A DNA stretch of 64,000 nt, taken from the NCBI GenBank assembly GCA_026415135.1, contig JAOAHS010000037.1, forward strand, positions 1 to 64,000, read 5' to 3'. The stretch is from Calditerrivibrio sp. GTDB lineage: Bacteria; Chrysiogenota; Deferribacteres; Deferribacterales; Calditerrivibrionaceae. Positions 39,653 to 59,490 of the stretch are shown here, piece after piece; within the stretch, counting starts at the first letter, position 1; every line of letters begins with the position of its first letter. The notes beneath the pieces are model-generated. The model searched no databases, had not been told where the DNA came from, and was given only the letters and a program-made list of their open reading frames with translations. Position numbers and translations under genes: made by a program.

Positions 39653-39660
39653 CATCTTTA

Positions 39661-39737
39661 TCCGTGGGGGTGCCCAAAAGGCTGAGAAATACCCCTTGAA
39701 CCTGATGCGGGTAATGCCGCCGAAGGGAATCGGGTGC
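39661..39737 (+). promoter_or_regulatory. TPP riboswitch (THI element)
   Basis: The conserved THI-box blocks appear in order: GGGGGTGCCC, GGCTGAGAAATACCCC, TTGAACCTGATGCGGGTAATGCCGCCGAAGGGA in separate short blocks. These make the pyrimidine-sensing arm (CTGAGA) and the pyrophosphate-sensing arm (GGGTAATGCC...GAAGGGA). A rho-independent terminator follows within four bases and thiG within 66. Binding of thiamin pyrophosphate should favour termination and so reduce thiG-thiH. Confidence 0.96.
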
Positions 39738-39740
39738 TAA

Positions 39741-39780
39741 AATGCCATCCGTACCTACTTCAGGCGGATGGCATTTTTTT
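39741..39780 (+). terminator. Riboswitch-controlled attenuator
   Basis: AATGCCATCCG (39741-39751) and CGGATGGCATT (39765-39775) pair over 11 bp, followed by a run of T to 39780. It lies between the TPP aptamer and the thiG ribosome binding site (GGAGAA), the position expected for the expression platform. The antiterminator arrangement was not worked out. Confidence 0.9.
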
Positions 39781-39802: not shown

Positions 39803-40579
39803 ATGTTTAAAAATGAGATAACCATTGCAGGTAGAACATTTAGAAGTCGTTTGATGTTAGGTACTGGGAAGTTCCCATCAAGTAAAGTGATGAAAGAAGC
39901 CCTCGAAGAAAGTGGAGCAGAGATTATCACGGTAGCTCTTAGGAGAGTAGACATACAAAATGCCGAAGATGATATCCTCTCCCATATAGATACCCAAAAA
40001 TACCTTTTACTTCCAAATACCTCAGGAGCAAGGGATGCCGAAGAAGCTGTAAGACTTGCACGTATTGCAAGAGCTGCTGGCTGTGAACCCTGGGTTAAAC
40101 TTGAAGTCACACCAGATCCATACTATCTGTTACCGGATCCTATTGAAACCTTCAAAGCTGCCGAAATACTCATAAAAGATGGTTTCAAAGTGTTGCCCTA
40201 TATAAATGCTGATCCCGTTTTAGCAAAAAGGTTAGAAGAGATAGGTTGCGCAACAGTGATGCCCTTAGGATCACCTATAGGTAGCAATAGAGGCATTAGA
40301 ACAGTGGAAAATTTAAGAATCATTATAGAACAGGCAAATGTACCAGTTGTCGTGGATGCAGGTATAGGTGCTCCTAGCCATGCAGCCCTGGCCATAGAAA
40401 TGGGAGCAGATGCCGTATTGGTAAATACTGCCATAGCTACAGCAGATAATCCTGTAGAGATGGCAAAGGCTTTTAAATATGCAGTGGAAGCAGCCTGTTT
40501 AGCGGTAAATGCAGGTATCCCCACAGAAAAACAAAGAGCAGAAGCATCTAGCCCCCTTACGGGTTTTCTGAGGGATTAG
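39803..40579 (+). CDS. thiG: Thiazole synthase ThiG
   Basis: A 258-residue Thi[55 protein letters not shown] and [24 protein letters not shown]-like segments are present; the catalytic Lys lies in the KLEV stretch (about residue 97). It builds the thiazole phosphate of thiamin from 1-deoxyxylulose 5-phosphate, dehydroglycine and ThiS thiocarboxylate. ThiH, which supplies dehydroglycine, is next. No thiS lies in this cluster. Regulated by the TPP riboswitch upstream. TGGAGAA precedes the ATG. Confidence 0.97.
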
Positions 40580-55552: not shown

Positions 55553-57115
55553 TTATCTTGCATACTCCACAGATCTTGACTCCCTGATAACAGAAACTTT
55601 TATCTGTCCTGGATAGGTCAACTCCTCCTCAATCTTTTTAGCGATATCCTTTGCAAGAGTATACATAGCATCATCGGTAACTACATCTGGTTCGACTATA
55701 ATACGAACCTCTCTACCAGCCTGAATAGCATAAGTTTTACTTACCCCTTCAAAACTTTTTGCTATCTCCTCGAGCTTTTCAAGTCTTTTAATATACGCTT
55801 CAAGGACCTCTCTCCTTGCACCTGGCCTTGATGCAGAAATAGCATCTGCAGCCTGTATCAAAACAGACTCCACATATTTAAATTCCTCTTCTCCATGATG
55901 TGAAAGGATAGCATTTATTATTCTTGGATCTTCATTATATTTTTTTACTATTTCGACCCCTATCGCTGTGTGGGATCCCTCACTCTCGTAATCTACAGCT
56001 TTACCAATATCATGAAGTAATCCCATCCTTTTTGCCATCTTTTCGTTTAATCCCAGTTCAGCAGCCATTAAACCAGCAATCTTAGCAACCTCGATAGAAT
56101 GGGCTAAAACATTTTGTCCATAACTCGTTCTAAATTGAAGCCTGCCAACAAGCTTTAGAAGTTCGGGATGAATATTGTGTAAACCTAATCTAAAAGCAGT
56201 CTCTTCTCCCACCTCAAGGATCTTCTTGTCAAGCTCTTCTTTGCTCTTCTCGTATATTTCTTCTATCCTTGTGGGATGAATTCTTCCATCAGCTATCAGT
56301 TTTTCCAGTGTCATTTTGGCTATCTCCCTACGATACGGATCATAAGATGACAATATAACCGCCTCAGGAGTATCATCCACTATGATATCGACACCTGTTA
56401 TACTTTCAAATGTTCTTATATTTCTACCCTCTCGTCCTATAATCCTACCCTTCATCTCATCACTTGGAAGATTAACAATCGATACAGCTATTTCACCAAC
56501 ATATTCTGGTGCACACCTCTGGATAGCCGTAGCAACAATCTCTTTACTCTTCTTCTCTGCTTCCCTTTTAGCCTCCTCTTCGATCTCCCTTACTATCCTT
56601 GCAGCATCCTGTTTGGCTTCAGCTTCCATAAGAGATATGAGATAGTTCTTAGCCTCCTCCTTTGTCATACCAGCGACTTTTTCAATCTCTGAAAGCATTT
56701 TCAATTTCATGTTTTCAGTCTCGATTTTCAGAGCTTCTACCTCTTGGAGCTTCCTATCAAACTCCTGTTCTTTTTTACTTATAAGCTCCTCTTTCTTCTC
56801 AATCAATTCGATTTTCTTATCGATCGACTCCTCCTTGGTCAAAAGCCTTTTTTCTACAAGTTGTAATTCCTTTCTTCTTTCCTTCATCTCCTTTTCTGCT
56901 TCCTGCTTTGCTTTAAATACTATGTCCTTAGCTTCGATCTTAGCATCTTTTACAATCTCATCCGCTTCCCTTTTAGCCCGCTGTATTATTTCATCAGCAG
57001 CTCTATTCTGTTTTGCGTTTTCCTCAGCTATTTTCTTCTTTTGTATCTGCTGCCCAATAAAAAAACCTGCAGCAACACCAACAATTGCAACAATAATAGA
57101 TATAACAACAGTCAT
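55553..57115 (-). CDS. rny: Ribonuclease Y
   Basis: A 520-residue RNase Y. A single N-terminal membrane helix ([19 protein letters not shown]) is followed by a long coiled coil rich in Lys and Glu (about 25-195), a KH domain with [16 protein letters not shown], and an HD domain with [12 protein letters not shown] and [11 protein letters not shown]. It starts decay of many mRNAs at the membrane. The HD motif and KH loop are intact. It is followed by ymdB with no gap and preceded by ygfA three bases upstream. Confidence 0.96.
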
Positions 57116-57118
57116 AAT

Positions 57119-57658
57119 CTACCTCCTGTAAATATTTTCTTCTGTAATAACTATATCAAGATGTTTATCCCAGGGATCTATTTCTATATGCTGGACCAAT
57201 TGAAACTGGTAAGCCAGCCCAACTCTAACTCCCTTAACATCTTCTAGTATCCTATCATACACACCTTTACCCATGCCAACTCTGTTACACATAACATCAA
57301 ACGCCACCAGCGGTATCACCACCACATCAAAGTCATACCTTACTTCATTGCTTTCAGGTTCCTGTATCCCATATTTGCCGGTGATCATCTTATCATCACC
57401 TTCATATTTGCAAGGCAAAAATAACCCATTTACATGTTTAGGCAAAAAGATTAGAGCATCTTTTTTATAAAGAGTATCTATAATATATTTAGTTCTCACC
57501 TCATTACCTACACTCCAGTAAACGAGATAACTACACCTATCCCCATAGAGATTTAAAAATCTATCTTGAATTATCTTACTTTTTGTCTCTACCAAGTTTA
57601 TATCCAGTGTTTTTCGAAAATCCACAACGCTACATCTAATTTCAGCCTTACTAACCAT
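57119..57658 (-). CDS. ygfA: 5-formyltetrahydrofolate cyclo-ligase
   Basis: A 179-residue enzyme when started at ATG 57658. The longer frame to 57787 reads through rarA and adds 43 residues that look like shadow sequence. YLVYWSVGNEVRTKYIID, ALIFLPKHVNGLFLP and, near the C-terminus, NRVGMGKGVYDRILE are the family motifs, the last being the G-x-G-x-G-x-Y-D nucleotide loop. It converts 5-formyl-THF to 5,10-methenyl-THF using ATP. The start overlaps the rarA stop by eight bases. Together with zapA and the 6S RNA this is the classic zapA-ssrS-ygfA neighbourhood. Confidence 0.92.
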   Translation of the reverse strand: MVSKAEIRCSVVDFRKTLDINLVETKSKIIQDRFLNLYGDRCSYLVYWSVGNEVRTKYIIDTLYKKDALIFLPKHVNGLFLPCKYEGDDKMITGKYGIQEPESNEVRYDFDVVVIPLVAFDVMCNRVGMGKGVYDRILEDVKGVRVGLAYQFQLVQHIEIDPWDKHLDIVITEENIYRR

Positions 57659-58859
57659 ATCTTTTTTTCCCTTTCCACAACTCTGATAATCTGTCCCTGA
57701 TCTTCTTTTCAAAACCATACTCCGAAGGAAAATAGAATTGCTCCTCAATACCCATATAATCCTGAGAAACAAAACCGCCATATTCAAAAGGGTACTTATA
57801 GCTTTTGGAGTTGCTTTTTATAGTGTTTGGTACTAATACATCATGCTCTTTTAAAAAGTTGCTAACATTTTTCATCGCTTCATAGCTTCTATTACTCTTA
57901 TGACAAGAAGCCAGATAAGTAACTGCATGGGACAAAAGGATCTCCCCTTCAGGCATTCCAACCCTTTCAAAGAGATTCCAAACAGCCATAAGGAACACTG
58001 CAGCATCCGGATGAGCATTTCCTATATCCTCAGAACAGCTTATTGCAAGCCTTCTAAAGATAGTATCAGCACTTACACCAGATCTAAGCAATTTATAGCA
58101 CCATAATAGGGCAGCATCCGGATCGCTTCCCCTTATACTCTTGATCAACGCAGACAAAAGATCATAGTGATCATCCACAGAATATTGGGAGGACAAAATA
58201 AGTTCATCCACCTCAAACATTGGTTTTACCGAACCATCTGAAATATCAGCACAGCTTATTGCAGCATCTATGAAATTCAATAGCCTTCGACCATCTCCTC
58301 CAGAAACTTTTACTGCTCTTTCCACTAGATGGTCTTCAAACTCTATCTCCTTTATACCTCTTGATCTTTTAAGATGAACAATAGACCTTTCTGCTATCTT
58401 TTTTAATGACGCATCATCTAACTTTTCAAATTTTAAAAAATGTGCCCTCGACCTTATAGCAGGTGTCAAAGAAAAAAAAGGGTTTTCTGTAGATGCACCA
58501 ACTACCTTTGCATATTTTTCATCAACAACATCTAACAATAAATCCTGTTGTACTTTCGTAAATCTATGTATCTCATCAATGAAGATCAGAGCACCTTGAC
58601 CGGTCTTTTTTGCAGTATCTATGATCTTTTTAATATCGGAACTACCTGATGATGACGCATGAAAACAGTAGTATGGCAGACAAAGCTCATTACAAAGTAA
58701 TCTAGCAAATGAACTCTTTCCGGTCCCTGTAGGCCCTGTTAAAATAAGGATATCAAACTCCCCTTTTAAAATAAACCTCACCTTAGGGGAATTAAGTACC
58801 TTTTGCCCTATCAGTTCATCCAAACTTTTTGGTATTAGCTCATCTACTAATCTCTGCAT
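57651..58859 (-). CDS. rarA: Replication-associated recombination protein A (RarA/MgsA)
   Basis: A 402-residue AAA+ clamp-loader-like ATPase. PKSLDELIGQKVL starts the family pattern, LTGPTGTGKSSFARLL is Walker A, LIFIDEIHRFTKVQQDLLLDVVDE is Walker B plus arm, and VGASTENPFFSLTPAIRSR is the sensor region. It acts at stalled replication forks. The start at ATG 58859 has a GGGG ribosome binding site separated by seven T; both lie inside the closing stem and tail of the 6S RNA. The protein ends where ygfA begins with an eight-base overlap. Confidence 0.95.
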   Translation of the reverse strand: MQRLVDELIPKSLDELIGQKVLNSPKVRFILKGEFDILILTGPTGTGKSSFARLLCNELCLPYYCFHASSSGSSDIKKIIDTAKKTGQGALIFIDEIHRFTKVQQDLLLDVVDEKYAKVVGASTENPFFSLTPAIRSRAHFLKFEKLDDASLKKIAERSIVHLKRSRGIKEIEFEDHLVERAVKVSGGDGRRLLNFIDAAISCADISDGSVKPMFEVDELILSSQYSVDDHYDLLSALIKSIRGSDPDAALLWCYKLLRSGVSADTIFRRLAISCSEDIGNAHPDAAVFLMAVWNLFERVGMPEGEILLSHAVTYLASCHKSNRSYEAMKNVSNFLKEHDVLVPNTIKSNSKSYKYPFEYGGFVSQDYMGIEEQFYFPSEYGFEKKIRDRLSELWKGKKRYG

Positions 58860-59043
58860 AAAAAAACCCCGCAAGACCGTGTGCAGAGTCGGTTTAAAGC
58901 CCTGGCTTACCAGGTACTTTTGGGAATCACCACCACTTTAGGCTTCCTGCTACTGGGCAGGCCTGCACACCATGGTGCGTATCATCCCTTAATTTAGAGG
59001 TGTTGGCTCCAAACTTATCTGCAACCACGAATCCCGCAGGGTT
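58860..59043 (-). ncRNA. ssrS: 6S RNA (SsrS)
   Basis: A structured, gene-free stretch of about 184 bases lies between zapA and rarA/ygfA, the classical position of ssrS. The 5' end AACCCTGC (59043-59036) pairs with 3' GCGGGGTT (58872-58865) along eight positions, with one G-T pair, as a closing stem; further in TGCAGA pairs with TCTGCA. The 3' side of the central region has a CCTGG-TAAG-CCAGG hairpin, and the conserved GAAGCCTAAA block is present. Transcription would end in seven T (58866-58860). 6S RNA binds sigma-70 RNA polymerase as a promoter mimic. Ends are estimated. Confidence 0.85.
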
Positions 59044-59294
59044 TATTCCAATCTACCGATTAGTTCCTGCAATTTAGATTCGCAATCTTCTAACTTTCTC
59101 TTAACTTCATAATATTCTGCAGCTATCTTAATAGCTGCCATAACTGCTAACGTTGACGTTGTTAATATATGTCCATTTTTTTCAATCTGCTTCATAGTTT
59201 CTTCGACATACGATGCAGCTTGTTTAACTAACCCTGCATCATTGCAGGATATTCTATATTTATTCCCATATACAAAAACCTCATTTGTTGCCAA
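59043..59294 (-). CDS. zapA: Cell division protein ZapA
   Basis: An 83-residue ZapA. VFVYGNKYRISCNDAGLVKQAASYVEETMKQI and TLAVMAAIKIAAEYYEVKRKLEDCESKL match the family: a short beta-hairpin head and long coiled-coil helix. It tetramerises and bundles FtsZ filaments at the division ring. It lies 10 bases after the small coiled-coil gene. Its stop codon (59043-59045) touches the 5' end of the 6S RNA. Identity is supported by both sequence and neighbours. Confidence 0.9.
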   Translation of the reverse strand: MATNEVFVYGNKYRISCNDAGLVKQAASYVEETMKQIEKNGHILTTSTLAVMAAIKIAAEYYEVKRKLEDCESKLQELIGRLE

Positions 59295-59304
59295 CTATTC
59301 ACCC

Positions 59305-59490
59305 CTAAATCTTCTCCAGTAACCGCTCAATCCTCTCTGCCACTGCCTCTCGCTCTTGCTTTAACCTCTGATTCTCCTTTAATATTTCATCTTTTTCTAT
59401 CTCTAATCTTTCTACCTTTAATTGTAATGCATTATAATCTTCTAAAAGCTTATCAATCTTTTTACTCAACTTATCTATCAACTCTTCCAT
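59305..59490 (-). CDS. Small coiled-coil protein, ZapB-like
   Basis: A 61-residue protein that is almost wholly a heptad coiled coil (LIDKLSKKIDKLLEDYNALQ and LEIEKDEILKENQRLKQER). It resembles ZapB, a small coiled-coil division protein that binds ZapA, and it is directly upstream of zapA with a 10-base gap. The size and polarity fit. Coiled-coil likeness alone is weak evidence for homology, so the name rests mainly on position. No other motif is present. Confidence 0.75.
   Translation of the reverse strand: MEELIDKLSKKIDKLLEDYNALQLKVERLEIEKDEILKENQRLKQEREAVAERIERLLEKI

Follow-up and report, generated by a model that had tools for sequence, protein, structure and literature searches.

In the 64,000-nucleotide stretch of Calditerrivibrio DNA analysed here (the window), a 6S RNA gene abuts the start of rarA. 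This raises the question of whether a GGGG in the closing stem of the RNA also serves as the rarA ribosome binding site and, if so, whether each transcript can become only 6S RNA or rarA message.

Identity and fold of the RNA between zapA and rarA

The preliminary description of this DNA had called the segment a putative 6S RNA and had proposed a search with the Rfam covariance model. This search (RF00013; gathering threshold 46.4 bits) gave a match on the minus strand at 59045-58862 that covered the entire model (positions 1-187 of 187), with a score of 85.6 bits (E = 1.7e-15), and this was the single 6S match in the genome. The call of a 6S RNA gene, made from sequence, is now firm. The features of the locus, all on the minus strand, are as follows:

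59305..59490 (-): small ORF for a coiled coil, at the zapB position ahead of zapA; in most genomes of the order a homologue occupies this position
59043..59294 (-): zapA; NCBIfam ZapA model, E = 3.4e-9, under the curated cut-off; order zapB-zapA-6S conserved
58862..59045 (-): 6S RNA (ssrS); full-length RF00013 match; fold z-score -4.1
59036..59044 (-): AAACCCTGC, 5' arm of the closing stem; predicted to pair with 58864-58872
58864..58872 (-): GCGGGGTTT, 3' arm of this stem, containing GGGG at 58870-58867
58860..58866 (-): run of seven T, read from the sequence; possible terminator tail and spacer between Shine-Dalgarno (SD) element and start codon
57651..58859 (-): rarA, an AAA ATPase of the RarA/MgsA type; RarA-type models, E = 2.9e-78 to 4.6e-44, under the curated cut-offs
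57119..57670 (-): 5-formyltetrahydrofolate cyclo-ligase of the ygfA/fau type (fcl); TIGR02727 above cut-off
55553..57115 (-): rny (RNase Y), following fcl in the apparent operon; TIGR03319 above cut-off

The predicted 6S fold was better than those of shuffled sequences by 4.1 standard deviations. Its closing stem, AAACCCTGC/GCGGGGTTT, has 9 bp and is formed by predicted pairing of 59036-59044 with 58864-58872; the pairing of GCGGGGTT with 59036-59043 that had been proposed earlier was reproduced exactly. Read along the minus strand, the order is the zapA stop codon TAA (59045-59043), ACCCTGC, the body of the RNA, GCGGGG (58872-58867), the T-run and the rarA ATG. The 5' end of the 6S match falls on the zapA stop codon, which ends 1 nt before the CCC of the closing stem (CCCTG), while the rarA ATG (58859-58857) lies 3 nt after the end of the match. 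This predicted start codon at 58859 is secure, since homologues from sister genomes start at that residue too.

The neighbourhood is also that of a 6S gene, with zapA upstream and fcl as the second gene downstream. The genes rarA, fcl and rny follow 6S with no gaps between them, and fcl overlaps the end of rarA; an NCBIfam profile search gave no match for the ORF at 59305-59490 in the zapB position. The genes appear to form a compact operon, pheT-zapB-zapA-6S-rarA-fcl-rny, in which the space between zapA and rarA is taken up exactly by 6S.

The preliminary description had also placed seven T after GCGGGGTT. The run does comprise seven T, but two of them (58866 and 58865) lie inside GCGGGGTT, leaving five before the ATG. 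Candidate features of a terminator are the 9-bp closing stem followed by the seven T, together with a match to a small terminator-like hairpin at 58890-58865. In the sister genome G003 the T-run is gone (spacer TTAAAAT) with the 7-nt SD spacing retained, and in G020-G022 it is interrupted (spacer TTGGTTTT), again with the SD spacing retained. Because the T-run was lost in G003 while the spacing stayed, its role as a terminator appears to be dispensable or optional. Of the proposal that one element might combine 6S stem, terminator with T-tail and rarA ribosome binding site, the stem and the SD placement were upheld; the terminator part was weakened by the loss of the T-run in G003 and its interruption in G020-G022.

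The closing stem as a candidate ribosome binding site

The GGGG at 58870-58867, in the 3' arm of the 6S RNA, lies 7 nt before the rarA ATG. As had been stated in the preliminary description, it is the only SD candidate for rarA, since the seven-base spacer leaves no room for another. Pairing energies were calculated with the anti-SD sequence ACCTCC, i.e., the 16S tail of the relatives G014 and G022; this exact pattern was found neither in the window's own assembly nor in G001. The energy for GGGG was -5.7 kcal/mol, compared with a median of -5.9 kcal/mol for the 52 ORFs of the window on which the SD statistics are based. The element is therefore of ordinary strength, and its spacing falls inside the range of 5-10 nt. 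Seven of the 52 ORFs had almost no SD (energy above 0). We consider it likely that the closing stem is put to a second use as the rarA ribosome binding site. A TTG at 58874, within the stem, was considered as another start and rejected, having no SD.

With the 6S RNA folded, the SD would not be accessible. Freeing the GGGG from this fold cost about 15.6 kcal/mol, compared with 1.2-10.7 kcal/mol for 26 other genes of the window; these opening costs are thermodynamic calculations rather than measured values. By computation, then, the GGGG is paired and hidden in the folded RNA, as the earlier description had supposed. When the 5' arm was treated as covered, as by a ribosome on the zapA stop codon, the computed cost dropped to 5.5-6.5 kcal/mol, and for RNAs beginning inside 6S it was 3.4-5.2 kcal/mol.

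The zapA stop codon is 1 or 2 nt from the CCC of the closing stem in the genus, and no more than 11 nt from it in most genomes of the phylum. Since the stop codon lies 1-11 nt from the stem, the 5' end of the 6S RNA must be generated either by processing or by a promoter located within zapA; we found no conserved promoter just before 6S, i.e., no -10 element at a constant place. Opening of the stem by ribosomes that are finishing zapA is possible: it is sterically plausible and kinetically doubtful, because RNA polymerase must copy about 175 nt more before the 3' arm exists. At general rates of transcription and translation, a ribosome has usually left the stop codon before that much has been copied.

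Distribution of the layout in and outside the phylum

A 6S match was present in 45 of the 51 genomes of the phylum. The gene downstream is rarA in nearly all of them, and in one family (f10) fcl follows 6S directly. In all three Calditerrivibrio genomes with a detected 6S, the distance from GGGG to the start codon is short (7, 6 and 7 nt), and the spacers differ in sequence (TTTTTTT, TTTTTT and TTAAAAT) with their length constant at 6-7 nt. In further genera, GGGG lies 8 nt (g6), 11 nt (g7) or 12-14 nt (g4) before rarA, and in the Chrysiogenes-like genera g18 and g19 it lies 9 nt (G004) and 7 nt (G005) before fcl. In the remaining genomes of the phylum the start is 19 to 264 nt from GGGG. The overlap is therefore not required by the phylum, since in g2, g3, g14, g16 and g20 the start codon is 19-34 nt away from GGGG, beyond SD reach. 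Among the 11 genera with a start no more than 40 nt from GGGG, five have it at 5-11 nt, whereas about two would be expected, by estimate, under even placing; spacing in the SD range is thus, by genus, weakly indicated as modestly above even placing.

Neither the GGGG nor its partner varied among the 6S RNAs of the phylum (39 of 39), at any distance to rarA. Comparison of the zapA-rarA junctions for paired changes in these two segments, which the preliminary description had suggested as a check, cannot discriminate: both being invariant in the 39 RNAs, they showed no covariation. Flanking pairs of the closing stem do covary in the 39 genomes, with changes on both sides at columns 8-205 (6), 14-199 (3), 17-195 (10) and 18-194 (5). 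Because 6S function alone explains the GGGG, its conservation is no evidence of selection for rarA; its presence is not chance, although it could be by chance that rarA begins within SD distance of it.

Two other arrangements were seen in the phylum. In seven genomes (G017-G019 and G025-G028; loci L038, L020, L033, L026, L035, L034 and L030), 6S lies 60-264 nt from rarA, and the rarA ATG is preceded at 11-13 nt by a GGGGTTT that pairs with CCC in a small hairpin, the loops of which differ. The computed cost of opening these hairpins was 4-6.4 kcal/mol, and the rarA SD is there again a GGGG inside a stem, without 6S. Two loci, L044 and L045 (G007 and G008), carry divergent 6S RNAs (47.6 and 42.8 bits) with the closing stem AGTACCTTCATA/TATGAAGGTACT, lacking CCCTGC/GCGGGG; fcl-rny is about 550-600 nt downstream of 6S, and rarA is not adjacent.

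When the genomes of about 85,000 species were scanned with a pattern for 6S-like DNA that leads directly into an ATG, 77 matches were obtained. Nineteen loci were checked with Rfam, and six outside the phylum were true 6S. None of these six had a long gene beginning at the ATG, so that the tight overlap of 6S and start codon is not general. We also sampled 150 6S loci, 30 each from the Desulfobacterota, Gammaproteobacteria, Alphaproteobacteria, Acidobacteriota and Nitrospinota, and a clear parallel layout was present in one of them, that of the gammaproteobacterium G183. In the Alphaproteobacteria, fcl often begins 7-50 nt after 6S, the stem being without an SD. By these surveys, the overlap is a feature of several genera in the phylum that is rare in samples elsewhere.

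Two single loci may be mentioned. In G183 (L161), the parallel just mentioned, the 3' arm of 6S contains CGGAG 7 nt before the fcl ATG, an independent case. In a Holophagae MAG (L054), a zapA-like ORF ends 14 nt inside the 6S match, i.e., coding sequence overlaps 6S.

Readings of the overlap and known 6S dicistrons

The reading that we prefer, to which we give a probability of about 0.5, is that GGGG is the rarA ribosome binding site, and that each transcript becomes either 6S RNA or rarA message, but not both. The invariant GGGG of the closing stem would then act for rarA as well. In an RNA folded as 6S it would be buried, and the molecule would be 6S RNA, either terminated at the T-run or trimmed. 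Were RNA polymerase to read through with the closing stem open, rarA would be translated from GGGG; the stem might be open if its 5' arm were absent, had been cut away or lay under a ribosome. What we infer here is that polymerase reads through, that ribosomes use GGGG and that the two outcomes are alternatives.

With only a modest excess of SD-range spacing by genus, packing without regulation is a serious rival, although we think it the less probable explanation. It holds that intergenic DNA was trimmed in this lineage, that the GGGG comes from 6S and that there is no regulation between 6S and rarA, which would be translated weakly or by other means (independently of an SD, or from a short-leader message left after excision of 6S). 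It accommodates a GGGG that is invariant irrespective of the distance to rarA, start distances that range from 6 to 264 nt among genera, the alphaproteobacterial fcl genes that often begin 7-50 nt after a 6S stem with no SD, and the 7 of 52 ORFs in the window that are almost without one. It fits less well with a spacing held at 6-7 nt in the genus despite changes in the spacer and at 7-11 nt in four other genera, with the ordinary SD strength of GGGG, and with the rarity of the layout outside the phylum (1 clear case in 150 loci).

Two further explanations concern how the stem is opened or avoided. It is doubtful that 6S RNA doubles as the leader of an operon for DNA repair and RNase Y, in which ribosome traffic on zapA acts as a switch in cis, deciding for each molecule between 6S RNA and an mRNA for RarA, Fcl and RNase Y, the two being mutually exclusive. 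A version in which ribosomes ending zapA cover the 5' arm, keep transcription from ending at the T-run and expose the SD, with operon transcripts giving RarA and untranslated ones 6S, is unlikely. The short distance from the zapA stop to the 5' arm (1-2 nt in the genus, no more than 11 nt in most of the phylum) and the fall in opening cost from 15.6 to 5.5-6.5 kcal/mol on coverage of the arm would suit it, as would the lack of a -10 at a constant place before 6S, by which some 6S may come from the operon transcript. However, the ribosome would need to remain on the stop codon while some 175 nt more were copied, the T-run is lost in G003, and the small hairpin at 58890-58865, within 6S, could still terminate transcription. 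Very improbable is a promoter for rarA inside the 6S gene, giving a short leader with an unpaired GGGG, such that the 6S fold would never occur on rarA mRNA. RNAs starting inside 6S do cost just 3.4-5.2 kcal/mol to open, but a consensus scan found no sigma-70-like site on the same strand within 6S, whose sequence is moreover constrained by 6S function.

A 6S RNA in a dicistron with the gene downstream is already known from ssrS-ygfA (PMC7641849, PMC4064990). In E. coli, zapA is followed by 6S and then, expressed by read-through, by ygfA (fau) on the same strand, and 6S is processed from a longer RNA (Chae 2011; Kim and Lee 2004; both as cited in PMC7641849). In E. coli K-12, 41 nt separate the end of zapA from 6S, and 75 nt separate 6S from the start of fau. 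The Calditerrivibrio locus resembles this dicistron in having a same-strand gene directly downstream of 6S, but it has practically no spacing on either side of 6S, rarA as the gene that follows, and the SD inside the closing stem; it is a variation on the known arrangement. Lactic acid bacteria also have rarA beside 6S, but upstream, and their 6S is thought to be monocistronic (PMC8414754), whereas in Calditerrivibrio rarA is downstream and abuts 6S. For E. coli SdsR-pphA, in which the downstream gene is expressed by read-through of a small-RNA terminator, the available text of PMC6610125 describes no overlap between the small-RNA stem and the downstream ribosome binding site, unlike 6S-rarA. 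Our literature search found no description of a 6S closing stem overlapping a downstream ribosome binding site.

If the preferred reading, either/or use of GGGG, is correct, production of 6S RNA and expression of rarA-fcl-rny would compete on the same molecule, and a global regulator of RNA polymerase would be tied through structure alone to genes of DNA repair, folate metabolism and RNA decay. This would suggest how the old linkage of 6S and ygfA could be regulatory, beyond being positional. The expression platforms of riboswitches and translational attenuators hide an SD in a stable stem. In the proposed arrangement, by contrast, the SD would be buried by an RNA that is an independent global regulator in its own right, with no ligand implied. 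Elsewhere in the window, a TPP riboswitch (39656-39746, plus strand, 70.1 bits) lies upstream of an ORF at 39803.
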